From Candidatus Didemnitutus sp. (GTDB lineage Bacteria > Verrucomicrobiota > Verrucomicrobiia > Opitutales > Opitutaceae): DNA of 38,436 nt. Every line of letters starts with the position of its first letter. The first letter of the stretch is position 1. This document shows positions 5,702-29,882 of the stretch, in pieces. The notes beneath the pieces are model-generated. The model was not told the origin of the DNA. It did no database searches and saw only the letters and a list, made by a program, of their open reading frames with translations. The DNA lies in the NCBI GenBank assembly GCA_030681265.1, contig JAUXXD010000134.1, positions 1 through 38,436 of the forward strand, given 5' to 3'. The position numbers and the translations under genes were made by a program.

Positions 5702-6892
<1,191 letters not shown>

Positions 6893-6960
6893 GTGGAGGT
6901 ATGTGTTTGTGGTTGAAGTTGTTGACTATTATTAACGTCGGTAGTCGACGACGTTTGCCG

Positions 6961-7036
6961 TGGAGCCCAGAACCGGATTCGAACCGGCGACCTCGTCCTT
7001 ACCAAGGACGTGCTCTGCCAACTGAGCTATCTGGGC
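6961..7036 (-). tRNA. tRNA-Thr (anticodon GGT)
   Basis: On the minus strand the acceptor GCCCAGA pairs with TCTGGGC. The D arm is TAGCTCAGTTGGCAGAGCA, the anticodon stem-loop is CGTCC-TTGGTAA-GGACG (anticodon GGT), and the T arm is CCGGTTCGAATCCGG. CCA is encoded at 6961-6963. It is the first gene of the tuf-rpoB transcription unit. Confidence 0.95.
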
Positions 7037-7071
7037 AGACCAAGGCATAGGCAAAAAACAAAGAGAACGAC

Positions 7072-7101
7072 TAGAGAACGATTCCCAAAAATTGTCGTCA
7101 A
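7072..7101 (-). promoter_or_regulatory. Possible sigma-70 promoter of the tRNA-Thr/tuf/rpoB unit
   Basis: On the minus strand TTGACG (7096-7101) stands about 60 bp before the mature tRNA-Thr. It is followed after 18 bases by TCTCTA (7072-7077), a poor -10 element. The -35 match is good but the -10 match is weak, so the placement is tentative. A promoter is expected here because this is the head of the cluster. Confidence 0.35.
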
Positions 7102-7128
7102 CTGTATTCTTGCACTTCCGCCAAAAAT

Positions 7129-7857
7129 CTACGGCCCGATCGTTATGCGATAACGTCCGGGTGCGAGAACAGACCCAATCCGCAACGTCTTCGCAAGGTA
7201 ATCCCGAAAGAATAAATCAATCTCGTCGCGGCCCGAGCCCGCGGCGAGCAACGGACCGCCCGTGATTCCGCTCGCCCCGATCGCAACCACGAATTCGAGT
7301 GGCGCAAAATCTGCGCGCGGCAAAGTGATCCCGGTCAAGTTTATTTCACGCAACTCACCATCTGTCATGCGCTTAATTTGCACAAACGCGTTGCGTTGCT
7401 CTAGGGCTACGGGGCGCGGTGCCTCTTCGCCAAAACCCGCGAACGGCACTTCGCTGGCCCGCGCGAGGATCTCCACGACGTTCTCGGCCGCCCCGAGATT
7501 CTCGGTGCCGTAATTCGCCAAGCCTCCCTCAGCAAAATTTAATTTGGCCTCGAAGTTCGCGAACACCTGACCGGGTTGCTTCACTAAACGCGGCGGCAAG
7601 CCACTTTGCCCGAAATTCCGCGCCGTCGGAATAAAGAGCGGGGCGGGATCGAAATAGTCGGCGCGCTCCCGCAACACTTGGTCGGGTGTCGCCTGCCCTC
7701 CCCCAGCCAATTGCACAAAAGGCTTCTTACCCATTGCGCCGCTCTCACTCGTATTGCTGAGCCCATAGTGCGACCAAAGCCCCCAGACGCCCGTCACGAT
7801 CAACGCCAACGTAGCCCCGACAAAAATCCGCCGCTTCACTCGAAAAGGTTCCGCCAT
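7129..7857 (-). CDS. Unknown single-pass membrane protein at the end of the ExbB/ExbD operon
   Basis: Function not recognised. The 242-residue protein has a short basic N-terminus (PFRVKRR), one transmembrane helix at about residues 10-28 and a long, probably periplasmic, remainder. The C-terminal part (about 165-242) contains LPRADFAPLEFVVAIGASG and RIGSVLAPGRYRITIGP and looks like a compact beta-rich domain. The start lies 8 bp after the exbD stop, so it belongs to the TPR-exbB-exbD operon. The membrane topology and position are those expected of TonB or TolA, but there is no proline-rich spacer and no recognisable TonB C-terminal domain. A role as partner of the proton channel is inferred from context only. 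Confidence 0.75.
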   Translation of the reverse strand: MAEPFRVKRRIFVGATLALIVTGVWGLWSHYGLSNTSESGAMGKKPFVQLAGGGQATPDQVLRERADYFDPAPLFIPTARNFGQSGLPPRLVKQPGQVFANFEAKLNFAEGGLANYGTENLGAAENVVEILARASEVPFAGFGEEAPRPVALEQRNAFVQIKRMTDGELREINLTGITLPRADFAPLEFVVAIGASGITGGPLLAAGSGRDEIDLFFRDYLAKTLRIGSVLAPGRYRITIGP

Positions 7858-7865
7858 GGGATCAT

Positions 7866-8339
7866 TTAGCGTCGCGCTGGCACGAATTGCGGCGCGTTGT
7901 TTTCTGCCTGCTCGGCCGCGACGAGCACATTAGCAAAACCCGTCTCGCGGGCCAGATCGCAAAGCTCCAAGAAGCCCTGCATCGAAACTTGTTTATCGAC
8001 CCGCACCAACAGTGATGCGCCGGGCCGCGCCTCTGCGTATCGCTGCAAGACGCTACGGAAATTTGCGAATTCGTAGATACCGCCCTCGAATAAAATCATA
8101 TTGTCGCGCCGAAAACTCACCACGACCGACGTCGTCCCTTGCTCGGCTGACGCCACGCGGGGCAATTCCAATTCCGCCGTCTCGTTCACGCCCACCGCCA
8201 TTCCCGGTGCGAGCACGAACCGCGAACCGAGCAACGCGAAAAACAAGCAGATCACCCCGACGTTGACCCAAAACACGACGTCGAAGTCCCGCGGAGGCCG
8301 CGCCAGTTGCGCGCGCAAATCGAGCGGCCGTGTAATCAC
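7866..8339 (-). CDS. Biopolymer transport protein ExbD/TolR family
   Basis: Membrane-anchored partner of an ExbB/TolQ proton channel. The reading frame continues upstream over exbB, but the GTG at 8337-8339 overlaps the exbB stop as GTGA, indicating translational coupling; this yields 157 residues. A cytoplasmic N-terminus of about 20 residues leads into one transmembrane helix (about 21-42, starting DFDVVFWVNVG with the conserved Asp) and a periplasmic domain ending near LVAAEQ. The helper pattern of ExbD (LLVRVDKQVSMQGFLELCDLARETG) is present at about 110-134. Whether it serves TonB-like, Tol-like or other work cannot be told from the sequence. Confidence 0.85.
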   Translation of the reverse strand: MITRPLDLRAQLARPPRDFDVVFWVNVGVICLFFALLGSRFVLAPGMAVGVNETAELELPRVASAEQGTTSVVVSFRRDNMILFEGGIYEFANFRSVLQRYAEARPGASLLVRVDKQVSMQGFLELCDLARETGFANVLVAAEQAENNAPQFVPARR

Positions 8340-8989
8340 TGGCCGGTCTCCTCGGGGCGCTTGGAGGGTCGATGTTCCCGCAACAGGTAACGCATGAGCT
8401 CGTTGCCTACCCACTCCATGTCGTGCACGAGCGCGCGCACGCGGCCCGTGAGAAAATGCCGCCCGAGATGCGCCGGGATTGCGACCGCCAATCCGACCGC
8501 TGCCGTGAGCAACGCCTCCCACACGCCGCCGGCGAGCACCGCCGGTGTGGCGTAGTTTCCGGACTGATTGAAGAGCCAGAACGTTTTGATCATGCCGAGC
8601 AATGTGCCGAGCAAACCCAACAACGGCGCGATTTGCGCGATCGCCGCCAGCGCACCGATGCGCCGCTCCAACGCGGGAATTTCCGTCAGCGCCGCTTCCT
8701 GCACCGCAAAGCGCAGCCCTTGTTCGTCGTCCGCCGAGTGACGCAGGCCCGTCTTCACGACCGCGGCCACTGGTCCGGGGGTATCTTCGCAGAGTGTCAA
8801 CGCCTCCATCAAGCGGTCGCGTTGCAGGAGATTCTTGATCCCGTTGAGAAACTCCGTGGAACGAATCTGTCCGCGATGCAGATAGAGCGCGCGCTCGACG
8901 AAGATCACGAGCCCGGCGATGCCGACGAGCACGAGCAGCCACATTACGGGACCACCTTTGGCGAAGAGACTGTAGCTAAATGCTGTCAT
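8336..8989 (-). CDS. MotA/TolQ/ExbB proton channel family protein
   Basis: Inner-membrane proton channel subunit. The 217-residue protein has a first transmembrane helix at about residues 13-33 (GGPVMWLLVLVGIAGLVIFVERAL). A cytoplasmic loop follows, then the family signature with APLLGLLGTLLGMIKTF at about 122-138, and a third helix around VWEALLTAAVGLAVAIPAH at about 156-174. The TolQ/ExbB fold and the T residues in these helices fit proton conduction. It starts 55 bp after the TPR gene stop and overlaps exbD by four bases. The subfamily is not resolved. Confidence 0.9.
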   Translation of the reverse strand: MTAFSYSLFAKGGPVMWLLVLVGIAGLVIFVERALYLHRGQIRSTEFLNGIKNLLQRDRLMEALTLCEDTPGPVAAVVKTGLRHSADDEQGLRFAVQEAALTEIPALERRIGALAAIAQIAPLLGLLGTLLGMIKTFWLFNQSGNYATPAVLAGGVWEALLTAAVGLAVAIPAHLGRHFLTGRVRALVHDMEWVGNELMRYLLREHRPSKRPEETGQ

Positions 8990-9044
8990 GCGAAGTGGCG
9001 CGCATCATGCGCGTGCGCAACTGGGCGTAAATCCGAAAGCGTGT

Positions 9045-11636
9045 TCACGGCTTCGCCTCCAAGACAGCGCGGAAGCGTTGCAACTTCGCCTGCGCTTGGA
9101 CGGCTCCGCCCAACTTGTGATCAACCACCATCTGGTAAGCGCGCTGCGCTTCGTCGAAACGCCCCGCCTCTTCGAGCGACTGACCGAGTTCGAGCAACGT
9201 GCGCGAAATCCAATAACGCCCCGTCGCCCCGAGCCGCGTCGCCATCGCGCCATCGAGCAAAAACGCATCCACCACCGACCAGTAAATTCTGCGCGCCACC
9301 ACCGCCTGCCCGCGCCGCGCTTGCGCGTAAGCCCACTTGAAGCCCGCTTCGACCCGGAGATCGACGGGGGCCGTCGGCAAATCGTGCAAACGCTCGAAAA
9401 GTGCCGCCGCCGCTTCGTAATTGCCGGGGTTGTTGCCGCCTTGCGCGAACAAACAATCCGCGAGCGCCAACTGCGCGAGAATCACATCGGCATGCTGGCC
9501 GCGATTGTTGATCAAATCTTCATACACGAGACGCGCCGCGCCGAAATCGTTCAGCTTGCGCAGCAGGTCCCCTTGCTTCAGCCGCGCATAGAACACGAGT
9601 TCATCGCGCGGATAACGCGTCACGAGACGCTCCAAACGCTCGAACGCATCACGCAAATTGCGATCCAAACCCAGCCGCTCCGCATAAATCGCCGCCTCGA
9701 AAAGTGCGAACGGCGCATACTCACTCGTGCCATTGGCATCGACCATGTCGACGAGGGTCTTCTCCGCGAGGGCGAGTTCACCGCGTTTCGCCTGCCGCGC
9801 CGCTTGCACAATGTAAGAATACACGGCGACTTTCGCGTCACGATTGGTTGAACGCAGTTGCGCCAGAATCGTCGTCGCCTCCGCATCGCGCCCGAGATCG
9901 AGCAATGCCTGCGCTTTGAGCAAATGCGCCGTGCTCTCCACCTCCGCGCGCAACGCCGCTTCGAGCCGCGCATTCACCAACGCCGCGAGCAATTCGTCCG
10001 CCTGCCGCGTGGCCGCTTCCGGTTGGTCGTTGTCGAAGGAAAGTTTGGCGCGCAACCACAGCAACCGCACGCGCAACTCGTCCGGCACCGGCGTGGGCGC
10101 CGCCGTCAACCGCTCGACGCGGGCCTGCGCTTCCACCACGCGGCCACGCGCCTGCAATTCGCGCACGAGATTCCACTCCGCCTGCCAGCGATTCACGATG
10201 TCGAAAGCCGCGCTACCCGCCATCTCATCGAGCAACACCGCCGCTTCCGTCAAGCGATCCGCCCGCACATCGGAGAGCACGCGTTGAAAAATCAACCCGC
10301 CCGTCGGCATCACTTGCGGCGCCTCGCGTAAGGCGGCGTCGTAGGCATCGGCGGCATTCTTGAAATCGCCGGAGCGGAAAAACGTTTCCGCCAGCAACAC
10401 GCCGAGCTCCGAGCGTTCGCGCCCGGGCGCCAATACGGTGCGCAACTGCGTGCACACATCCGCCGCCGTGCGATAGAGCCGCGCGTCCCACGCCACACTC
10501 AGCCGCACGCCGAGCGCCGCGGCCTTCAACGGCGAACCCGGGAAACGATCCAGCAACGCGCGCGCGTCTTCTTCCGCGATGTTGGCTTGTTTGTCCGCCA
10601 AGGCCGCCTGCGCGCGCACGAGCAACAAATCCTCGATAATCGGGTGCGGGCGCGGAGCGTTAATCAGTTCGCTCAAATCGCGTCGCAGTTGCTGCCGCTC
10701 GGTCGCGGTGCGCGTGCCGCGTGCCAACGCATAGAGTGCGGTGCGCTGCGTTTCCACCCGCTGTCCATCGCGCACTAATTCGCGAAAAGCCCGGCGCGCT
10801 GCGGCACTGCTTTCTCCGGCGATCAATCCGATCAACAAACGAAACTGATCCGCCACATTGCGCTCCGTCGGGGGCAGCGCCGCCAGTTGCCGTTCCAGCA
10901 CGGCGAGCGCGTCGGTAGTGCGGTTCACGCGCGCCAGTCCCGCCGCATAGTAACGTGCCGCGTCGAAGCCCACGCGTTGCCCGACGAAACGCTCCATGTT
11001 GGTGCGCCACGCGTTCAATTCCTGCTCCGTCGGCGTGCTGCCGCGCAAGATCGCCTGCGCTTGCCCAAGCGTGAAGCGCGCGCGCTGCTGATCGGACACC
11101 GCCGCTTGCACGGCTTGTTCATAGAGTGCATTCGCCCGCTGCACCTCGTTGTCAAAATCCGCCACTTGCGCCTGCAAAAAATACCACCAGCCGCGTTCGC
11201 CGGCTGCCAGTTGGTCCGTGAGGATATCGCCGAGTGCCGCCTTGGCCGACGCGCCGCGCCGCGCGTGAATTGCCAGCAAGCCTGCGCGCAAGAGGTAGGA
11301 ACTGCCGCGCGGTCCTTCGATTTTTTGCAGCTCTTGCTCCGCCGCCCGCACATCGCCCGCATCGAGCAGGGCAGTGACAAGCGCGAGTTGCACGCGTGGT
11401 CGCGCCTCGTCGGGCAACGCTGCGTCGGCCAGAATGCCGCGATAATAGCCGGCCGCCACCAGTGGGAAACCGGCCTGCAAGGCGCTGTTGGCGCGCCCTT
11501 CCCCGACGAACCAGCCGCCGGGCACGAGTTCCGCCGCGGCGCGTTCGCTCGCCAACGGACTTTGACTCGCCGGCTGCGCCAGCAGCATCGTCGACCAGAA
11601 ACACGCCCCGCCTATCGCACACACCAATTTTCTCAT
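9045..11636 (-). CDS. Large secreted tetratricopeptide-repeat-like protein of the ExbBD operon
   Basis: An 863-residue protein dominated by alpha-helical hairpin repeats rich in Ala, Leu and Arg, such as AAGYYRGILADAALPDEARPR and ADALLAALV-type units; this looks like TPR or Sel1-like solenoid architecture. I chose the ATG at 11634-11636 because it yields a classic signal peptide (MRKLVCAIGGACFWSTMLLAQ), whereas an in-frame ATG 43 codons upstream would hide it. After export it would lie in the periplasm or on the outer membrane. The final units (GRFDEAQRAYQMVVDHKLGG) resemble YbgF/CpoB-type tail repeats. It is the first gene of the operon, so it probably works with the proton channel. The partner is unknown. 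Confidence 0.85.
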   Translation of the reverse strand: MRKLVCAIGGACFWSTMLLAQPASQSPLASERAAAELVPGGWFVGEGRANSALQAGFPLVAAGYYRGILADAALPDEARPRVQLALVTALLDAGDVRAAEQELQKIEGPRGSSYLLRAGLLAIHARRGASAKAALGDILTDQLAAGERGWWYFLQAQVADFDNEVQRANALYEQAVQAAVSDQQRARFTLGQAQAILRGSTPTEQELNAWRTNMERFVGQRVGFDAARYYAAGLARVNRTTDALAVLERQLAALPPTERNVADQFRLLIGLIAGESSAAARRAFRELVRDGQRVETQRTALYALARGTRTATERQQLRRDLSELINAPRPHPIIEDLLLVRAQAALADKQANIAEEDARALLDRFPGSPLKAAALGVRLSVAWDARLYRTAADVCTQLRTVLAPGRERSELGVLLAETFFRSGDFKNAADAYDAALREAPQVMPTGGLIFQRVLSDVRADRLTEAAVLLDEMAGSAAFDIVNRWQAEWNLVRELQARGRVVEAQARVERLTAAPTPVPDELRVRLLWLRAKLSFDNDQPEAATRQADELLAALVNARLEAALRAEVESTAHLLKAQALLDLGRDAEATTILAQLRSTNRDAKVAVYSYIVQAARQAKRGELALAEKTLVDMVDANGTSEYAPFALFEAAIYAERLGLDRNLRDAFERLERLVTRYPRDELVFYARLKQGDLLRKLNDFGAARLVYEDLINNRGQHADVILAQLALADCLFAQGGNNPGNYEAAAALFERLHDLPTAPVDLRVEAGFKWAYAQARRGQAVVARRIYWSVVDAFLLDGAMATRLGATGRYWISRTLLELGQSLEEAGRFDEAQRAYQMVVDHKLGGAVQAQAKLQRFRAVLEAKP

Positions 11637-11782
11637 GAGCGGAGCGAGCGTGCGCGGCGCCGCGACAACTGGCAAGCTCGGCATCCAAACCCCGGCCCGC
11701 TGTGTAACTGAATACTGCTCGCACATCGCGAATGAATGGGACAACAATCCGCCCGTTTCGTTCAACCTTACTTACTCCGACC

Positions 11783-12373
11783 ATGATTACTTATCTCATT
11801 CTCGCTGGTGTTGCCTTGGTCTTGTTCTTCTGGATCGCGGGCTCCTACAACGCTCTCGTCACGCTGCGCAACCGCTTCAAAAACGCCTTCGCGCAAATTG
11901 ATGTGCAGCTGAAGCGCCGCTATGACCTCATCCCGAATCTCGTCGAGACGGCCAAAGGTTACATGAAACACGAGCGCGAAACGCTCGAAGCCGTCATCGC
12001 CGCGCGCAACACCGCCTACGCCGCCTCGAAAGCCGCCGCCGCCAACCCCGCCGATGGCAGCGCCGTCAAAGGCCTGATGGGCGCCGAAGCCGGACTCGGT
12101 GGCGCACTCTCCCGCCTCATGGTCGTGGCCGAACAATATCCCGAACTGAAGGCCAACCAAAACATGATGCAGCTCACCGAAGAGCTGACTTCGACGGAGA
12201 ATAAAATCTCGTTCTCCCGCCAAGCCTTCAACGACGCCGTAACCGCCTTCAACACCAAGCGCGAACTCTTCCCGACCAACCTCATCGCGGGCATGTTCAA
12301 CTTCAGCGAAGCACAACTCTTCGAAGTGGACAGCGCCAGCGAACGGCAGGCGCCGCAGGTGAAGTTCACCTAA
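11783..12373 (+). CDS. lemA: LemA family membrane protein
   Basis: Conserved bacterial protein of unclear biochemical role, usually found beside a membrane protease. The 196-residue product has one N-terminal transmembrane helix (MITYLILAGVALVLFFWIAG) and then the LemA helical domain, with the family segments YNALVTLRNRFKNAFAQIDV, LKRRYDLIPNLVETAKGYM, TENKISFSRQAFNDAV and ending near FNFSEAQLFEVD. The ATG at 11783 is preferred over one 17 codons upstream because it starts directly at the membrane helix. It is divergent from the TPR gene and about 95 bp upstream of an M48 metalloprotease, which is the usual pairing. Confidence 0.93.
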   Translation: MITYLILAGVALVLFFWIAGSYNALVTLRNRFKNAFAQIDVQLKRRYDLIPNLVETAKGYMKHERETLEAVIAARNTAYAASKAAAANPADGSAVKGLMGAEAGLGGALSRLMVVAEQYPELKANQNMMQLTEELTSTENKISFSRQAFNDAVTAFNTKRELFPTNLIAGMFNFSEAQLFEVDSASERQAPQVKFT

Positions 12374-12380
12374 GCAAAGG

Positions 12381-12467
12381 AGTGGGTAGTGAGTAGCAAG
12401 TAGCGAGCATCGCGCCAACGGACTTCCGACTACTCGCTCCCGCCTACCCGCTCCTCGCTCCCGCTAC
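12381..12467 (+). repeat. GAGTAG/CTACTC inverted low-complexity repeat between lemA and the protease gene
   Basis: The 95-bp gap contains short tandem GTAG-type units on its left (12381-12407) and CTACTC/CTCGCT-type units on its right (12430-12467). GAGTAG at 12391-12396 can pair with CTACTC at 12430-12435, and GGGTAG at 12384-12389 with CTACCC at 12444-12449, so a hairpin is possible. There is no U-tract, so it does not look like a normal terminator. Confidence 0.5.
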
Positions 12468-12468
12468 C

Positions 12469-14418
12469 ATGGATTTCTTTGAAGCCCAGGCCCGCGCCCG
12501 CAATCGGACGAACCGGCTCGTGCTGCTCTTCGTGGCCGCGGTGCTCGGCACGATCGGCGCGGGTTATTTGGCCGCGCTTTTCATTCATGGTTCGATGGTG
12601 CGCCAAGAAGCTAGTTTTGGCGCAACGTCTCCTTGGCTCTATTGGAACGCGGACCTCTTCATACCCGTCGCGCTCATCACGGTGGCGGTTGTGGGAGTGG
12701 CATCGTTAATCAAGTGGACGCAGATGCGCGCCGGCGGGGCGGCCATCGCCGCTTCAGTCGGTGGCCGCGCCATCAGCCCGCAAACCACCGATCTGCACGA
12801 GCGTCGTTTGCTCAACATCGTCGAGGAAATGGCGATCGCGTCCGGCGTGCCCATCCCCGCCGTCTTCGTGCTCGAAGGCGAACAAAGCATCAACGCCTTC
12901 GCCGCCGGACTGAAAACCACCGACGCCGCCGTGGCGGTCACCCGCGGCACAATGGAAAAACTCAGCCGCGACGAACTCCAAGCCGTCGTCGCGCACGAGT
13001 TCAGTCACATTCTCAACGGCGACATGCGGCTCAACGTCAAGTTGTCCGCCATCGTCTTTGGCATCCTCGTGATCGGCATCATGGGGCGCGGCCTCTTGTA
13101 TTCACTCGGCCGCGGACGCGTGCGCGGTGGTGGCGGCAAAGATAAGGGCGGCGGCATCGCCTTCCTCCTCGCGATCGGAATCGCCCTGATGATTGTCGGT
13201 TACATCGGCTATTTTTTCGGACGCCTCATTCAGGCCGCCGTGTCGCGGCAGCGTGAGTTTCTCGCCGATGCGTCCGCCGTGCAATTCACGCGCAACCCCG
13301 CCGGCATTTCAGGCGCATTGAAGAAAATCGGCGGCTACGCGCTCGGCTCACAAATGACCCACGCCAACTCCGCCGAGATCGGCCATTTCTTTTTCGCGCA
13401 AGGTTTCCGCTCCAACTTCGGCGGCCTCTGGGCCACCCACCCGCCGCTCGCAGATCGTGTGCTCGCCGTCGAGCCGCGCTGGGATGGCAAATTTTTTGAG
13501 CCACCTGCCGTCGTCGATGTTGCGCGCGAGTCATTCGCCTCCGCCAAAATTGGCGGCACCCCGCCGCTGCATCGCGAAGTCCTGCCATCGGCGCGCATTC
13601 CGTTTGTGCCGATGGCCGTCATCGCGGAAATCGGCGCGTTGACCGAGGCGCATTTCCAGCGCGCGCAAACAGCGCTCGCCGCCATTCCCGAATCATTGCG
13701 CACCGCGGCGCATGACCCATTGCGTGCGGCAGCGCTTGTTTACGCGCTGCTCCTCGATGCCACCGAGCCCACGCAGGCGAAACAATGCGGCCTCATCACC
13801 CACCACGCCGGCGACGCCACCGCCGAAACCACGCGCGCGCTGCATCCCGCGACGCTCACCGTCGAACCGAGCGGCCGCCTGCCCTTGTTGCAACTTTGCC
13901 TGCCGACGCTCCGCACCTTGTCGCGCGAAGCGCTCGCTCAATTTGTCACCACGCTCGACGAGCTCATCCACGCCGACGGCCAGGTTTCGCCCTTCGAATT
14001 TGCGTTGCAGAAGATGCTCGTGCACCAACTCGAAGCGTTGCGCACGCCGTCGGCCGCCGTGGCGTTTCATTCGTTTAAAGCCGTCGAAAAGGACATCGCC
14101 GTCGTGCTTTCGGCTTTGGCCTATTTAGGCAGTGGTGATGACCGCGACGCCGTTCGTCGTGCCTTCGGCATGGGCGCGCATCAAGTTAAGCTCCTCGACG
14201 AGCTGGCATTGCTCCCGCGCCCAGCGTGCGGCCTCACGCAACTCGACGCCGCACTCACGCGCCTCGCGCAAAGTTCGCTACCGATTAAACAACGGGTGCT
14301 CGCCGCCGCGGCGCACGCCATCGGCGCCGACGGCACCGTGACAATCGAGGAAGGCGAACTCTACCGCGCCATCGCCGCGAGTCTCGATTGTCCTGCGCCT
14401 GCGTTGGCTGGCGCTTGA
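12469..14418 (+). CDS. M48 family membrane zinc metalloprotease with C-terminal TerB-like domain
   Basis: Likely membrane-bound protease (HtpX/Ste24-like) that clips or degrades membrane proteins. The 649-residue protein has membrane helices at about 17-40 and 62-82, then the catalytic HEFSH motif (His176, Glu177, His180) and a Glu at about 263 in QREFLADAS as the third zinc ligand. Two more helices lie at about 192-212 and 230-252. The family is usually 280-330 residues; here about 320 further residues form a soluble tail. Segments such as LDELIHADGQVSPFEFALQ and AHAIGADGTVTIEEGELY near residues 500-520 and 620-640 resemble TerB/DjlA acidic helical units. It is paired with lemA upstream. Confidence 0.9.
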   Translation: MDFFEAQARARNRTNRLVLLFVAAVLGTIGAGYLAALFIHGSMVRQEASFGATSPWLYWNADLFIPVALITVAVVGVASLIKWTQMRAGGAAIAASVGGRAISPQTTDLHERRLLNIVEEMAIASGVPIPAVFVLEGEQSINAFAAGLKTTDAAVAVTRGTMEKLSRDELQAVVAHEFSHILNGDMRLNVKLSAIVFGILVIGIMGRGLLYSLGRGRVRGGGGKDKGGGIAFLLAIGIALMIVGYIGYFFGRLIQAAVSRQREFLADASAVQFTRNPAGISGALKKIGGYALGSQMTHANSAEIGHFFFAQGFRSNFGGLWATHPPLADRVLAVEPRWDGKFFEPPAVVDVARESFASAKIGGTPPLHREVLPSARIPFVPMAVIAEIGALTEAHFQRAQTALAAIPESLRTAAHDPLRAAALVYALLLDATEPTQAKQCGLITHHAGDATAETTRALHPATLTVEPSGRLPLLQLCLPTLRTLSREALAQFVTTLDELIHADGQVSPFEFALQKMLVHQLEALRTPSAAVAFHSFKAVEKDIAVVLSALAYLGSGDDRDAVRRAFGMGAHQVKLLDELALLPRPACGLTQLDAALTRLAQSSLPIKQRVLAAAAHAIGADGTVTIEEGELYRAIAASLDCPAPALAGA

Positions 14419-23043: not shown

Positions 23044-23186
23044 GGCGCGCAGTGTAACTCGAATTGAGGAAAAGCAACCCTGCGCGTGGGCCCCGCGGTG
23101 AGACATTGCGCCGAGTTGTCCTTATCTCCCAGGCCATCTGTCCACTAGAGGACGCGGTCAATTGCGCACACGATGCCAGCACGACG

Positions 23187-26100
23187 ATGAAACCGCACCC
23201 ACGCCTTCGCCTCCTCTGTCTTGCCATTGTCCTGTTCGTCACGCCGCTGACGTGGTCGCAAACGTCGCTTTACTGGGATATCAATGGTGCGACTGCCGGC
23301 TCCTCCGCTGGCGACACGGCGGCCGGCCTCTGGGATGCGGCCAATCCTCACTGGAGCACCGACGTCAACGGCACCGCGGCAACGCAGGTGTGGTCGGCGA
23401 TCGGTCCGGCGATTTTTTCGGCCGGCACCAACGCCACCGGCACCTACATCGTCACCGTCGATGGCGTGCAAACCGGCACGAGCCACGGGTTGCAAGTGGA
23501 GCGCGGCACCGTGACGTTCACCGGCGGCACGCTCGCGGATTTCGGCAAAGTCACCGTCGCCGACGGACTCACCACCACCATCGCGTCAACCTTCACGACT
23601 TCGCTCGCGTTCACCAAAGACGGCTCCGGCACCTTGGTGTTGTCGGGCAACAACACTTTCAGCACCGGCCTCACGCTCGCCAGCGGCACCTTGCAATCCA
23701 CTTCCACCGGCGCATTGGGCAGCGGTCCGGTGACGTTCGCTGGCGGCACGCTCGCGGTGACGAGCGGCAGTCCGACCTTGCCCACGTTTTCGGTCGGTCA
23801 GGGATCCGCGACGATCAGCAACGCCGGCACCGTGCTCACCAGCAGCAACTACGCCGAGGCCGGCCGCGATGGCGGCGGCGCCATCAACGTCACCGACGGC
23901 GGACGCCTCGCCATCGCCACCAGCATCGCGGCCGGATTGAATACCGGCGACACCGGCACGATCACGGTCACGGGCACCGGTTCCCGCATGGAAGCAGGGA
24001 GCTTTCTCGCCTTGGCCTATACTTCCGGCACGACCGGCGCGCTCAGCGTCACCGACAACGCTTCCGTCCAAATCGACACTTATGCACTCGTCGGCTACCA
24101 GGGCGCCGGCATGCTCAACGTCACTTCTGGCGGCACGTTCACGACGACGCAGGATTTGAACATCGCCAACACGGCGACGGCGCAAGGCACGCTCAACGTC
24201 ACCTCCGGCGGCACCGTCACCACCACCACCAACGCCTATGTTTCCTACGGCAACGCCGCGACAGCGAACGCGACTGTCACGGGCGCGAACTCGGCATGGA
24301 ACATCAGCGGTTTCCTCGAAGTCGGCCACGACGGCACCGGCACTCTCAACGTCACCGACGGCGGCAGCGTCACCGCGGCGCAAAGCACCGCCCTCGGCGT
24401 CACTTCCAGCGCGACCGGCAACATCCTCGTCTCCGGCACGGGCTCCGCGCTGAACACCGGCACCGCGTTCTATCTCGGCCACACCGGCGCGGGCAATCTC
24501 ACCATTGCCTCCGGCGGCGCCGTGGCCGCCGACAACTTCAACGTTGGTTTCGCCGCCACCGGCGTCGGCACGCTCAACCTCAACAGTGGCGGCACGCTGC
24601 GCATCGGCGGTCTCACCCAAGGCAACGGGAGCGGCACGCTCACTCTCGCCGGCGGCACACTTGAAGCGATCAACCGCTCCTTCAGCAGTTCCGTTCCACT
24701 CGTGCTCGCCTCCGCCACCAACTCCACCGTCTCCATCAGCGGCCTCGCCGTGCAACTCGACGGTCTCATCTCCGGCGCCGGCGGATTAACCAAAACCGGC
24801 GTCGGCATCCTCACACTCGGCGGCAATAACACCTTCTCCGGCGGCACGACTTTGAGCGGAGGCTCCCTCATTCTCGCGCACAACGCCGCGCTCGGCTCAG
24901 GCGCGGTCACGCTTGCGGGAGGCCTGCTCGATCTCGGTGGCTTCTCGCCGACGTTGCCGTCCGTCGTTTTCAACGGCGGCACCTTCACCAACGGCTCACT
25001 GGAAAACGCCACCGCTTTCGAAGTCCAGTCCGGCTCCCTCAGCGCCGCGCTCACCGGCAACGCCGCGTTGACCAAAACCACGGCGGGCACCTTCACCCTC
25101 AGCGGCGACAACACCTACTCCGGCGGCACGACCATCAACGCCGGCACCCTGACCCTCGGCCACGCCAACGCCCTCGGCACCGGCGCAACCTCCATCGCGA
25201 CGGACGGCACGCTCGATCTCGGCGGCTATGTCCCCTCTGCGGGCAACCTCACGCTCGACGGCGGCACCTTGCAGGGCGGCTCGCTTTCCCCGACCGCACT
25301 CACTCTCAATTCCGGCACCGTCGCCGCCACGCTCACCGGCACGGGCGCGTTGACCAAGTCCGGCGGCAGCACGATCACGCTCGGCGGCAACAACACCTAC
25401 TCCGGCGGCACGGCATTGAGCGGCGGCTCCCTCGTCATTGCGCACAATGCCGCACTCGGCACTGGCACGGTCGCCATTTCCAACGGTGCAGTCATTGACG
25501 CGAGCCCCCTCGCGAATCTCGTTTTCGGAGGATCAGGTGCCACGCAGAGCGTGACGGTTACGGGCGCGGGATCACAGCTCTACACCGCTAACGGTCTTAC
25601 CTTCGGCAACGCGGGAAACAGCACTGTTGAAGTGACGGGAGGCGCGAGCGTGACCAGTTTGGGCACCACCTCGTTCGGCGTAGGTTCCGGCATCGGAGCA
25701 GGTGTGGTTACAGGCACCGGGAGTGTGTTGGAGGTCTCTAATACTTTGAACGTTGGCGCATTCGGCGGCACTGGTGTTCTCACCATCGGAGCCGGTGGCA
25801 CGGTGAACGCACACAAAGTCCAACTCGATACCGCCGGTGGCGGCAGCGGAACGATCAATTTGAACGCCGACGGCACCCTCCGAGTCATGACCAGCGCAGG
25901 AATCGTGATGGACTCGATCGCCAATGCCTCCGTCAACCTGGCAGGGGGAACTCTGAGCTTGGACGGTAACAACTCTTCCAACGTTCCGCTGCAATTGGCC
26001 GCAGGGACCGTTTCAACCATCACGACCACGAGCGGGACCACCACCTACTCAGGCAGCATTTCCGGCGAAGGCTCACTGCTCAAGAATGGTTCCGGAGCAT

Positions 26101-29100
26101 TGACGCTTACGGGCGATAATTCTTTCAGCGGCGGACTCACGGTTAACCGAAATATCGTTTCAATCGGCCACGCCAACGCGCTCGGCACCGGTGGTGCCAC
26201 GATCGGCCCCAATCTCGTAATCAATTCCAACGTGTTTCCGACCACCCTTGACCTCGGGGGATTTTCCATCAGCTCCGGTCCCTTCCTGATCGCTGGCGGC
26301 AATTTGATCAATGGATCAATCCCCGTGGCATCACTTGCGGCGAACTCGCTCGGCACGGTTGCCGCGACTTTGACGGGCGCTGGCACCTTCACCAAATCCG
26401 GGGCCGGAACTTTGCTCTTCTCCGGAGCCAATACCTACACTGGCGGCACAGCGGTCACTGCGGGCACCTTGGCCATCGGCCACATTTCCGCTCTCGGTGC
26501 GGGCGAAGTCGAGATTACGGCGGACGCCATCCTCGACTTGGGCGGGCTCAACCCCGCCAACACACTCAATCTCACCGGAGGCACGGTGCAGAACGGCACC
26601 GTCTCGCCTTCCGCTCTCTCCGGATTCCATGGCACGGTCACCGCCTTGCTCGCCGGCCCAGCAGCCCTCGAGAAAACTGGTGCCAGCACGTTGGAACTTA
26701 CGGCCAATAATAGCTATTCGGGCGGCACCCTGCTCAGTGGCGGCACCCTGCGCATTGCTCATGCCGCTGCCTTGGGAACCGGCGATATCAGTATCAACAA
26801 CGGACACCTCGACGGCGGCTCTGCGAACTTGTTTTTCCAACGCGCTGGCAGCGCCCAGACCGTTACCCTCAACGGCACCAGTTCATCGCTGACCACCACC
26901 GGCTCGGTGGAAATTGGTCGCGAGGAACTTGGTGCTCTCAACCTGACAAACGGCGGAACTGCGACCAGTGGCACATCGTTCTCCATTGGTGTCAGCGGTG
27001 GCTCGGGCATTGCCCAAGTAACCGGCACAGGCAGCGGGTTGACTGCCGGAACGACCATCCACTTGGGTGCGTCCGGCGGCTCGGGTGTGCTCGACATCGG
27101 CAGCGGCGGTTCAGTGACCGCACACCGAATCTCTTTTGGTTCCGGGGGTAATGGTTCGGGCACACTCAACCTCAACCCCGGCGGGACGCTCACGCTCATA
27201 TCATCAAACGATGCCGACACTATCGTCGCTGAACCGGGAGCGACGGCACTCGTCAACCTCGCCGGTGGCACGCTCCGCCTTGTCGGAGGCACGAACGCAG
27301 TGCCATTCCAGCTAGCGACCGCCTCTCAATCTACGATCGAAACCCATATAGTGCTCAGCACAATATCCGGCTCCATCTCCGGCACCGGCGCGCTCCTCAA
27401 AACGGGCCCCTCAACGCTTCTGCTTTCGGGCAACAACACGTTCAGCGGCGGCATGACCATCGCCAGCGGCTACCTCGAATTCGCCTCTCCCAGCCATCTT
27501 GGCACCGGTAGCCTCACACTAAACGGCGGCGGCCTGCGCTGGGCCTCCGGCAACACCGCCAGTCTCTCCGGTCGCCAGCTTGTCGTCGCCACGAACGGCG
27601 CATTTTGGGATACAAACGGCAATGACGTCGCGCTTGCTTCCGCTTTCTCCGGCACAGGCGTCGTGCACAAAATCGGTGCCGGCACGCTGTCGCTGAGCGG
27701 CAATAATACGGTCGCAGGTTTGCAGATCGAGGACGGCCAACTGTCAGTCCCCACTGGTGCCATCCTCGGGGTAAGTGGCCCCAACAACCTCAATGTAAAC
27801 TCCGGCGCGTTGCACCTCGCCGGCGGCACACTGCAGGTGCATTCCGCCAATCTGACCGGCAATGCCGTTCCTGTGCTCGCCGCCACCACCACGTCGCTTT
27901 TCAACACCAACGGCTTCTCGGCCACTCTGGCAGGATTCTCCGGCGAGGGCGCGCTCTCCAAAGTCGGCGCCGGCACCCTCACGCTTTCAGGCAATAACAC
28001 TTTCTCCGGTGGAATGAGCGTGCAACAGGGCACCCTCGCCTTCGCCGGTGCGTCCTCCCGCATTGTCACGACCCTTGCGCCCACCTTCGGCACCAACCCG
28101 TCCGCCACCTTGACCGTCGCGGCAGGGGCCTCATTTACTTCGCAAGCCTCCGTTACTGTGGGCGACAATCAAAGCGATGCCGGCACGCTCCTGATTGCCG
28201 ACACCGGTTCCGAGTTTGCAACCGCCGGTTCCCTCACCGTCGGTCACAGCTCCGCCGGCACCTTGACGATCTCCTCCGGAGGCCAAGCGACCGTCGCACT
28301 CGATGCCGATTTCGGCCGCAACAATCAATCAGGCGGGCCCGGCACTCCCGACATTTTTGGCAGTGGCACGGTCACTGTTACTGGAGCGGCGAGCCGCCTC
28401 ACGATCGGGGGGAATCTCATCAACGCCGACCGTGGCACCAGTGTGCTCACCATTTCTGCTGGCGGCAATTTAACCGTTACCGGCAACACAACGCTCGCTC
28501 GGGACGGGGCTAGTGCTAACGGCCAACTGCTTGTTACCGGCACCGGCAGCAATTTTCTCGCGAGTGGTTCTCTGGACCTCGCAGCGGGAACCGCATTACT
28601 ACGGGTTGAGCAGGGCGGCTCGGCCCAGATTGGCGGCGACGCATCGGTGGCGACGCAGATTGCAAACAATAGCAGCATCGTTGTGACCGACATGAATTCG
28701 CTACTCGAAATCGGCCAGAATCTAACTGTCGGACACCGCTCCGCTGGCAGCTTAATTATTGAGGCAGGCGGACGCACAGTCGTTGGCAGCAGCGTTACTC
28801 TGGGCGTCCAGAACGGCCCGCCACTCCAATTGCCCGGAGGTTTCTCCATGCCGGGAGCAAGATCGACCGGTGAAATATCAGTGTCCGGAAGCAGTAGCCT
28901 ATTCGAAGTAGCCGGAAATATCGCCGCCGGTATCGAATCGGACGGCAAACTCACCCTCGCCAACGGCGGAACGGCCATGATTAACGGGCACTTCGTGCTG
29001 GGCACCCAAACTGGCTCCGTCGGCACCATTCACTTGGATACCGGCGGAACATTGGCGATCGGTGGCGATGACGCCTTGCGGTCAGGTGCCGGCGCGGCCG

Positions 29101-29882
29101 TGCTCAATTTCGCCGGCGGAAACCTCAAAGTGATCAACAGCCCACTCACCTCGTCCGTCCCCGCCACGCTCACAAACACCACCTCCGTGGATACCAACGG
29201 TCTCTCCGCCATCCTTTCCGGCGTGCTCTCCGGTTCCGGTGGCCTCACCAAGATCGGCGTCGGCACGCTCACTCTCTCCGCCGAGAACACTTATAGCGGC
29301 AACACTTCCATCAACATCGGCACGCTCCGGCTCGCCAACACCTCCGGCAGCGCCTTCGGCTCCGGCACCGTCACGGTAAACTCCGGCACCACCCTCACCG
29401 GCGACGGCAGCTTCACCGGCGCCTTGCTGCTCGCCGCTGGTGGCACGTTCTCACCCGGCAATTCTCCCGGCCTCGTCACGATTGGCAGTGGATCCGTTTT
29501 CAACGGCCTCACGCTGATGGAAATCAGCGGCCTCGACCGCGGCGTATCCTACGACGCCATCAATGTCGGCGGCGCCGGCTCCATTACCTTTGGCGGCACG
29601 CTGACGGTTTCCCTCCTCAACGGCTTCATGCCCTCAGCCGGCTCAAATTTCACCTTGTTCGGCATCACTGCTTCTTCCGGCCTGTTTGATGCCATCAACC
29701 TGCCGTCGCTCACCAACGGCCTGCAGTGGGACACCACCGCGCTCTACTCCAACGGCCTGTTGAGTGTTGACGTATCTCCGATCCCCGAGCCCTCCACCTA
29801 CGCCGCGTTGCTCGGTGTGGGCGCGCTCGCGTGGGTCGCGTTGCGCCGCCGTCGCCGCAACGCGGTCTCACTCCACCGGTAG
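23187..29882 (+). CDS. Giant PEP-CTERM protein with autotransporter-associated repeats
   Basis: A 2231-residue exported surface protein. I chose the ATG at 23187 because it yields a signal peptide (MKPHPRLRLLCLAIVLFV, cleavage near WSQ) followed by TSLYWDINGATAG, the usual start of such proteins; upstream in-frame codons read as non-family sequence. Two repeat families alternate. Eleven autotransporter-associated units of the LTKTGAGTLTLSGNNTYSGG type begin near 23604, 24781, 25064, 25346, 26074, 26380, 26658, 27388, 27660, 27950 and 29240. T5SS/PEP-CTERM-associated beta-helix stretches lie between. There is no beta-barrel domain; the end is VSPIPEPSTYAALLGVGAL followed by RRRRR, the PEP-CTERM sorting signal. 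Exosortase is not in the window. Adhesive or structural role inferred. Confidence 0.92.
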   Translation: MKPHPRLRLLCLAIVLFVTPLTWSQTSLYWDINGATAGSSAGDTAAGLWDAANPHWSTDVNGTAATQVWSAIGPAIFSAGTNATGTYIVTVDGVQTGTSHGLQVERGTVTFTGGTLADFGKVTVADGLTTTIASTFTTSLAFTKDGSGTLVLSGNNTFSTGLTLASGTLQSTSTGALGSGPVTFAGGTLAVTSGSPTLPTFSVGQGSATISNAGTVLTSSNYAEAGRDGGGAINVTDGGRLAIATSIAAGLNTGDTGTITVTGTGSRMEAGSFLALAYTSGTTGALSVTDNASVQIDTYALVGYQGAGMLNVTSGGTFTTTQDLNIANTATAQGTLNVTSGGTVTTTTNAYVSYGNAATANATVTGANSAWNISGFLEVGHDGTGTLNVTDGGSVTAAQSTALGVTSSATGNILVSGTGSALNTGTAFYLGHTGAGNLTIASGGAVAADNFNVGFAATGVGTLNLNSGGTLRIGGLTQGNGSGTLTLAGGTLEAINRSFSSSVPLVLASATNSTVSISGLAVQLDGLISGAGGLTKTGVGILTLGGNNTFSGGTTLSGGSLILAHNAALGSGAVTLAGGLLDLGGFSPTLPSVVFNGGTFTNGSLENATAFEVQSGSLSAALTGNAALTKTTAGTFTLSGDNTYSGGTTINAGTLTLGHANALGTGATSIATDGTLDLGGYVPSAGNLTLDGGTLQGGSLSPTALTLNSGTVAATLTGTGALTKSGGSTITLGGNNTYSGGTALSGGSLVIAHNAALGTGTVAISNGAVIDASPLANLVFGGSGATQSVTVTGAGSQLYTANGLTFGNAGNSTVEVTGGASVTSLGTTSFGVGSGIGAGVVTGTGSVLEVSNTLNVGAFGGTGVLTIGAGGTVNAHKVQLDTAGGGSGTINLNADGTLRVMTSAGIVMDSIANASVNLAGGTLSLDGNNSSNVPLQLAAGTVSTITTTSGTTTYSGSISGEGSLLKNGSGALTLTGDNSFSGGLTVNRNIVSIGHANALGTGGATIGPNLVINSNVFPTTLDLGGFSISSGPFLIAGGNLINGSIPVASLAANSLGTVAATLTGAGTFTKSGAGTLLFSGANTYTGGTAVTAGTLAIGHISALGAGEVEITADAILDLGGLNPANTLNLTGGTVQNGTVSPSALSGFHGTVTALLAGPAALEKTGASTLELTANNSYSGGTLLSGGTLRIAHAAALGTGDISINNGHLDGGSANLFFQRAGSAQTVTLNGTSSSLTTTGSVEIGREELGALNLTNGGTATSGTSFSIGVSGGSGIAQVTGTGSGLTAGTTIHLGASGGSGVLDIGSGGSVTAHRISFGSGGNGSGTLNLNPGGTLTLISSNDADTIVAEPGATALVNLAGGTLRLVGGTNAVPFQLATASQSTIETHIVLSTISGSISGTGALLKTGPSTLLLSGNNTFSGGMTIASGYLEFASPSHLGTGSLTLNGGGLRWASGNTASLSGRQLVVATNGAFWDTNGNDVALASAFSGTGVVHKIGAGTLSLSGNNTVAGLQIEDGQLSVPTGAILGVSGPNNLNVNSGALHLAGGTLQVHSANLTGNAVPVLAATTTSLFNTNGFSATLAGFSGEGALSKVGAGTLTLSGNNTFSGGMSVQQGTLAFAGASSRIVTTLAPTFGTNPSATLTVAAGASFTSQASVTVGDNQSDAGTLLIADTGSEFATAGSLTVGHSSAGTLTISSGGQATVALDADFGRNNQSGGPGTPDIFGSGTVTVTGAASRLTIGGNLINADRGTSVLTISAGGNLTVTGNTTLARDGASANGQLLVTGTGSNFLASGSLDLAAGTALLRVEQGGSAQIGGDASVATQIANNSSIVVTDMNSLLEIGQNLTVGHRSAGSLIIEAGGRTVVGSSVTLGVQNGPPLQLPGGFSMPGARSTGEISVSGSSSLFEVAGNIAAGIESDGKLTLANGGTAMINGHFVLGTQTGSVGTIHLDTGGTLAIGGDDALRSGAGAAVLNFAGGNLKVINSPLTSSVPATLTNTTSVDTNGLSAILSGVLSGSGGLTKIGVGTLTLSAENTYSGNTSINIGTLRLANTSGSAFGSGTVTVNSGTTLTGDGSFTGALLLAAGGTFSPGNSPGLVTIGSGSVFNGLTLMEISGLDRGVSYDAINVGGAGSITFGGTLTVSLLNGFMPSAGSNFTLFGITASSGLFDAINLPSLTNGLQWDTTALYSNGLLSVDVSPIPEPSTYAALLGVGALAWVALRRRRRNAVSLHR
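23798..29301 (+). repeat. Four-fold super-repeat: T5SS-type stretch, linker, PATR unit
   Basis: Each super-module has a T5SS/PEP-CTERM-type beta-helix stretch, then a linker of the form xNLxxGGTL...LAGGTL...VPxxLA...GxISGxG, then a xLTKTGxGTLTLSGNNT unit. Linker-to-PATR joints lie at about 24568-24845, 25855-26135, 27165-27452 and 29028-29301. Spacing is irregular because additional PATR units are inserted between modules. Confidence 0.65.
24818..25474 (+). repeat. Near-identical DNA repeat pair, 188 codons apart
   Basis: About 90 bases starting at 24818 and at 25382 read almost the same DNA (CGGCGGCAAnAACACCTnCTCCGG onwards, through GCGCACAAnGCCGC). The offset of 564 bases is a multiple of three, so recombination between them would keep the frame and remove or add two PATR units. 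They encode the GGNNTFSGGT/GGNNTYSGGT units. Confidence 0.6.

Follow-up and report, generated by a model that had tools for sequence, protein, structure and literature searches.

Does the four-gene operon on contig JAUXXD010000134.1 (assembly GCA_030681265.1) of the verrucomicrobial bacterium Candidatus Didemnitutus sp. encode an envelope machine that runs on the proton gradient, as ExbB and ExbD do when they serve TonB or TolA? In the window (the whole analysed stretch of 38,436 nucleotides), reading frames on the minus strand (11636-7129) follow one another in the order TPR (tetratricopeptide repeat) protein, ExbB, ExbD and a 242-residue protein, and their spacing (a 55-bp gap between the TPR and ExbB genes, a 4-bp overlap between ExbB and ExbD, and an 8-bp gap ahead of the last gene) confirms that given in a preliminary description of this DNA. 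The description saw here an envelope-machine-like gene set, which our analysis bears out; the four genes are co-conserved and stand apart from the other Ton-type loci of the genome. Its further proposal of a proton-driven machine is not supported for this genome, given a feature that it had missed, namely an ExbD without the transmembrane Asp. We somewhat favor the reading of the operon as a Ton/Tol-derived machine, no longer coupled to protons in the canonical way but still in use, probably as a passive or thermal tether or scaffold.

The homology of the two motor genes is clear from the Pfam scan of the operon (MotA_ExbB, PF01618, 1.9e-27; ExbD, PF02472, 1.3e-08; both over the cut-off), and the top matches of the ExbB protein in both NCBIfam and the PDB are TolQ models and chains. 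In Escherichia coli, the ExbD D25N and TonB H20A variants are inactive (PMC11658791; here and below, papers are cited for portions of their text), ExbD Asp25 lies close to ExbB Thr148 and Thr181 (PMC6778125), and the proton residues proposed for TolQR are D23, T145 and T178 (PMC12965293). A profile alignment (to 6tyi) places Asn26 of the window ExbD at the position of E. coli Asp25. This replacement would resemble a permanently protonated Asp, the state that the D22N variant of MotB mimics (PMC9389320). Among the literature matches listed (titles and abstract openings, with subscription journals mostly uncovered), neither natural Asp-less ExbDs nor the four-gene operon was described.

To place this replacement in context, we compared operon loci from three overlapping sets (n=29, 80 and 33), in which 148 rows reduce to 130 distinct ones. 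The operon profiles were made from the first loci fetched, so that later counts are biased to similar sequences, and the relatives found by the TPR protein are the best 80 of 209. Across the 130 distinct rows the residue at the ExbD site is Asn in 101, Asp in 25, Ser in one, Leu in one and unreadable in two. By reading, six further members of the order have Asp, and two rows of the group coded f15 (G181 and G206) have Asn. As a baseline, Asp is present in 32/32 distinct non-operon ExbDs from 34 loci of this genome and its relatives; 30 of the 34 are those returned by the ExbD search, mostly best-scoring, with weaker ExbDs unread.

The genome itself carries, outside the operon, four more ExbB matches, seven TonB_C matches and four other ExbDs, the latter all with Asp. 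One may thus envisage mixed complexes, in which an Asp-bearing ExbD encoded elsewhere in the genome joins the operon ExbB or ExbD and supplies the proton site, the more so as components of the Ton and Tol systems cross-complement one another in E. coli (PMC12215075). We consider this quite unlikely: the operon has retained an ExbD of its own, apparently under purifying selection, and a borrowed ExbD would leave the missing pore Thr181 and the missing transducer His (see below) unexplained.

The history of the Asp site was followed on a quick tree of 69 rows, comprising all Asp rows having ExbB and part of the Asn rows. The window genome clusters with Opitutaceae metagenome-assembled genomes, its nearest row in the tree being L036. 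Parsimony requires five changes at the site. One of them is a loss of Asp at the base of a 41-row crown Opitutaceae clade (support 100), which includes the window genome and adjoins an Asp-bearing row (L127, support 91). The remaining changes fall on L064, L229 and two groups within f77, which belongs to a different order of the same class; most f77 rows in the tree are represented by ExbB columns only. Members of the same family outside the crown (L061, L207 and, by reading, G024) have kept the Asp. As a separate observation, four f77 rows (L233, L234, L235 and L237) have Asn for the ExbD Asp, with the neighboring Pro and ExbB Thr181 still present.

The loss of Asp is accompanied by changes in the partners. 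In the window ExbB, as aligned by profile to TolQ chains, Thr129 corresponds to TolQ T145/ExbB T148, and Ala163 occupies the position of TolQ T178/ExbB T181, so that only the first of the two pore threonines is kept. A hydroxyl residue (Thr or Ser) is found at the Thr181 site in 22/22 readable Asp rows versus 51/101 Asn rows, the others having Ala (43), Val (5), Leu (1) or Phe (1). On the tree this hydroxyl changes seven times, and none of the changes is required among the Asp rows; with the Asp-less part making up 51% of the tree length, a rough branch-length argument, which is not a proper test, gives 0.51^7 = 0.009. The third element is the transducer His: in E. coli, TonB His20 touches ExbB Ser34 and Trp38 (PMC12215075). 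Within Opitutales, the central 13 residues of the transducer helix include a His in 15/21 Asp rows, 0/96 Asn rows and 0/1 Ser row, and over all Asp-less rows in 0/101 read; this definition was narrowed from the 21-residue helix core after a first count. The window transducer is without the SHLS helix motif and its essential His; it has one His at the helix end and none in the inner helix. The TolQ Ser position that contacts the His follows the same trend, with Ser in 16/18 Opitutales Asp rows versus 3/97 Asn rows. By analogy with the studied motors, changes of the sort that inactivate them have thus become fixed in the crown version of the machine, which is nevertheless conserved.

Several observations weigh against a simple loss of coupling. 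First, the placement of L064 and L229, both on long branches, is unsure, and the independent losses of Asp may be fewer than five. Second, the Asn is itself near-invariant in the crown (96/97 rows), and ExbB Thr148 is kept in 99/101 Asn rows as well as in 22/22 Asp rows; therefore the site is constrained and not simply decaying, a pattern that would fit a packed, neutral pore. Third, the TolQ T178A variant has only moderate defects (PMC12965293). Fourth, the mid-helix His is found in only 1/4 Asp rows of f77 (and in 0/4 Asn rows), and under the looser 21-residue definition a His is present in 6/100 Asn rows (where it sits at the end of the helix; the window is one of the six) versus 18/25 Asp rows. 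Fifth, two elements of the coupling network do not behave as they should: the Pro corresponding to TolQ 187 is found in 95/97 Opitutales Asn rows and in 1/18 Asp rows, the reverse of what would be expected, and 126/126 rows lack the Trp, which means that even the Asp rows depart from the textbook motor. Finally, independent-pairs tests, with two usable pairs, gave no significance.

To these can be added ExbB His174, a near-invariant residue that could carry protons, present in 90/97 crown rows versus 1/18 Opitutales Asp rows. It invites the suggestion that the proton path was rebuilt, the motor still being ion driven with His174 taking part in proton transfer instead of the ExbD Asp. The constraint on Asn26 and Thr148 is compatible with this suggestion, and so is Gln119, found in 97/97 crown rows where 17/18 Opitutales Asp rows have Arg, Lys or His. 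However, His174 is 11 residues from the Thr181 position, and the site would have to have shifted far; it is missing from 7/97 crown rows; the four f77 Asn rows and L064 have Tyr at this position; and Thr181 is drifting. Gln119 is not specific, since it also occurs together with Asp in f77 and in L061, for which reason the charge of residue 119 was dropped as a candidate for compensatory covariation. Overall, we regard a rebuilt proton path as unlikely, and return to the uncoupled machine as the preferred reading.

That this machine is still in use is suggested by its conservation, which the preliminary description had named as a point to be surveyed and which proved to be extensive. The four genes are found in the same order and on the same strand in 26/29 loci fetched by the 242-residue protein (the exceptions being L055, L064 and a contig-end fragment, L056; L051 carries a 2-kb insert), in 77/80 loci fetched by the TPR protein (L094, L099 and L116 reach the contig end), and in 28/33 further loci. 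The exceptions among the latter are three f15 loci with the 242-residue gene only and two loci of group f16 with only ExbD and the 242-residue gene; in f15 (G134, G181 and G206) the operon genes are scattered, yet all four are present. The 242-residue protein is present in 30/38 relatives, and its family profile matched 41 genomes in a sample of 288 from the phylum, every one of them in the order of the window; in this sample the order members G163 and G240 are listed without a match, and 227 matchless genomes are unlisted. Within the family of the window the protein is retained in 23/25 and 25/25 genomes (two samples).

Across the two samples, ten genomes were without a 242-residue match. Seven of them have a clear TPR match (G024, G163, G240, G026, G027, G035 and G030), with an adjoining ExbB in six; in G025 and G029 the TPR matches are all weak, and there is none in G011 (74% complete). 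With an earlier profile, a fourth protein was recovered beside TPR/ExbB in G024, G163, G240 and G026, and was not found around the TPR/ExbB loci of G027 and G035. In the 0.9-Mb genome G030, also of the order, the TPR protein (G030:C26, L319) stands without ExbB alongside, and an ExbD-like frame (G030:C16, L323) ends at a contig end; this genome was dropped as a candidate keeper of the TPR protein alone, as its ExbB may fall in an assembly gap. Most class-level TPR matches are without a neighboring ExbB and were left out of the analysis.

In a comparison of the window with the relative closest to it, the ratio of nonsynonymous to synonymous substitution rates (dN/dS) is 0.08 for the TPR protein (last 652 codons), 0.10 for ExbB, 0.09 for ExbD and 0.14 for the 242-residue protein, rough values as dS is >1. 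All four genes look to be under purifying selection. The loss of residues essential in known motors might be read as a sign of a decaying, functionless operon, but these ratios, together with the retention in nearly all genomes of the family, make it extremely unlikely.

The fourth gene product would be expected, from its position after the motor genes, to be the energy transducer, and it was here that the preliminary description saw an unknown protein with a single membrane helix, no proline-rich linker and no TonB C-terminal domain. The first two features of this portrait are correct. In an AlphaFold2 model (66 sequences) the N-terminal helix (8-32), with a hydrophobic core, is confident and is the single N-terminal transmembrane helix; the middle part, of low confidence, has just two short helices; and the linker is, by reading, not proline-rich. 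As to the C-terminal domain, sequence searches agreed with the description. The protein has no Pfam match at E<=1 (vWA, the von Willebrand factor A domain, included) and nothing relevant in NCBIfam or PADLOC, no TonB_C match is listed by Pfam in any of 29 family members scanned, and a PDB-sequence profile search with the family returned only two weak irrelevant matches. A direct hhalign comparison of the C-terminal part of the family with 32 TonB_C domains scored 17.4 (best of 60 column shuffles, 16.7), and Foldseek alone gave no significant match with either the full model or one of the C-terminal 100 residues (TolA domain III stands at rank 28, E 3.8, in the second of these two lists).

A TonB-like domain is, on the other hand, suggested by the predicted fold and by an intermediate family. 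The model is confident from ~155 to 242, where the predicted elements are, in order, four strands, one helix and a final strand. When the candidates supplied by Foldseek were passed to a second-look aligner, the full model was matched at the top by TolA domain III (1lr0; Z 5.0, rmsd [root-mean-square deviation] 2.9, 70 aligned), followed by the TonB globular domain (9dc4; Z 4.6, rmsd 3.3, 66 aligned) and the TonB C-terminal domain (6fip; Z 3.7, rmsd 3.6, 69 aligned), with the next row at Z 2.7; such Z values are moderate, and those <8 can reflect a mere common arrangement. When the last 100 residues were modeled on their own, the top three were the same (Z 5.5, 5.2 and 3.9), the third of which we count as tied with the next, unrelated row (3.4). 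The intermediate family comes from f77, where the fourth protein, encoded after TPR-ExbB-ExbD, is of comparable size and has relatives in 9/11 genomes of the group. One f77 protein reached E 0.014 with Pfam TonB_C, below the cut-off. In pairwise hhalign comparisons (which are not database searches) the f77 family scored 37.0 over 45 columns with the 32 TonB_C domains (best of 50 shuffles, 16.9) and 60.3 over 184 columns with the 242-residue family (best shuffle, 18.4).

On the strength of the second-look result and of the f77 link, we consider the 242-residue protein to be very probably a divergent TonB/TolA-type transducer; we would be a shade more confident were the third TonB row not tied with an unrelated one. 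Both families also share a linker motif, FDPxPLFxPT in the 242-residue family (FDPAPLFIPT at 69-78 of the window protein, conserved in the family alignments) and FDPSLMSLPS in f77. The "motor box" of TonB and TolA occupies the corresponding position (PMC12204202), and we would guess that the motif does the same job. The distinct proton-driven machine of the preliminary description, in which the transducer would be replaced by the TPR protein or by some unrelated protein, could still appeal to the blank Pfam and NCBIfam searches, to the shuffle-level TonB_C score and to Foldseek. We find it very unlikely in view of the TonB/TolA-like domain as the best second-look match, the f77 family and the missing ExbD Asp; the finding that the description itself had said would overturn its idea, a TonB-like C-terminal domain, has largely been made.

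The favored reading can now be put in mechanistic terms. By homology, five ExbB subunits of the machine would enclose two of ExbD (5:2), and the TonB/TolA-like transducer would be added to them, with the large TPR protein as a partner in the periplasm. Within the order, the ancestral form probably ran on protons. In the crown Opitutaceae, the window genome included, the motor would have become uncoupled from the proton gradient, with the ExbD Asp changed to Asn, the transducer lacking the mid-helix His and the second ExbB pore Thr drifting. As the genes are still selected for, the complex would most likely serve, passively or driven by thermal motion, as a tether or scaffold that connects the TPR protein with the inner membrane and the outer envelope. 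For the broader proposal of a naturally de-energized Ton/Tol motor, under purifying selection family-wide, with Asp lost several times and a passive trans-envelope tether or gate as the outcome, we would put the chances at about even.

How does such a machine compare with the known ones? With the Ton system it shares the ExbB and ExbD families and a transducer gene after the motor genes, encoding a protein of 242 residues with a single N-terminal helix and a probable TonB/TolA-like C-terminal domain; it differs in the Asn for ExbD Asp25, the Ala for ExbB Thr181, the missing mid-helix His, a linker that is not proline-rich, a C-terminal domain beyond the reach of Pfam and a dedicated 863-residue TPR protein. 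The Tol-Pal system (TolQ-TolR-TolA-TolB-Pal-CpoB) provides the best ExbB match (TolQ) and the best structural match (TolA domain III), and its CpoB can be compared to the predicted periplasmic TPR protein of the operon. However, the immediate neighbors here are tRNA-Thr, tufA, LemA and M48 peptidase genes (no search with TolB or Pal models was made), the TPR protein is much larger and far under the cut-off of the YbgF model (tol_pal_ybgF in NCBIfam, 44.8 bits versus 90.1), and the proton residues are altered. Closest in layout are operons of the PVC (Planctomycetes-Verrucomicrobia-Chlamydiae) bacteria, in which TPR, TolQ-like and TolR-like genes are followed by one-helix vWA transducers (PMC12204202). 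Those have a vWA C-terminal domain, a heterologous TolR-like pair and a His helix motif, whereas the present operon has one ExbD, a probable TonB/TolA-like domain and no such His; the main text of that paper does not contain "Opitut", and the portions cited here do not mention Asp loss. Among the 5:2 motors MotAB, AglRQS and GldLM, the first two belong to the same motor superfamily as the operon; MotB and the Agl proteins have a conserved Asp (PMC9389320), and the operon is without peptidoglycan-binding or gliding parts.

If the favored reading is true, the motor architecture functions apart from proton flow. How the binding of a proton to the Asp powers motors of the Ton, Tol and flagellar types has yet to be explained, and an operon that exists in one version with Asp and another with Asn would be a set of paired natural experiments, in which the structural and the energetic roles of a motor could be separated. 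A TonB-like transducer and its TPR partner would also be placed in an envelope operon that is retained widely.

Features of the four-gene operon in the window, with the evidence for each assignment
Feature	Coordinates	Strand	Details and evidence
TPR-repeat protein, secreted (predicted)	9045..11636	-	863 aa; translation, Pfam TPR models, first operon gene in relatives
ExbB/TolQ-like protein	8336..8989	-	217 aa; Pfam MotA_ExbB, profile alignment to TolQ chains, residue tables
ExbD/TolR-like protein	7866..8339	-	157 aa, GTG start; Pfam ExbD, profile alignment to E. coli ExbD 6tyi
ExbD Asn26 codon (aac)	8262..8264	-	site of essential Asp in energized relatives; sequence and alignment
Divergent TonB/TolA-type transducer (supported, unproven)	7129..7857	-	242 aa; AlphaFold2 models, structure comparison, profile links, family alignments

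The TPR protein matches several TPR models of Pfam. Its N-terminus is, by reading, a signal-peptide-like stretch (MRKLVCAIGGACFWSTMLLAQPA), in agreement with the signal peptide previously assigned to it, and no lipobox is obvious. Downstream of the operon are a tRNA-Thr gene (6961-7036) and, by reading, tufA (5702-6892), and upstream, divergent from the operon, are the LemA and M48 peptidase genes (window 11732-14418). No promoter-like site was found within 6900-12000. The EF-Tu start motif was seen in 111/142 fetched loci (duplicates counted), and in L181 the 242-residue gene is separated from the other operon genes, yet still adjoins tufA.

Elsewhere in the relatives, TonB_C matches number up to 27 per genome, and tandem TonB_C domains occur in single open frames of G001:C12, G005:C384, G006:C9 and G007:C1. 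The window also contains a 2272-residue frame (23064-29882), apparently for a large surface protein, in which a PEP-CTERM motif and 11 stretches of the passenger-associated transport repeat are seen.

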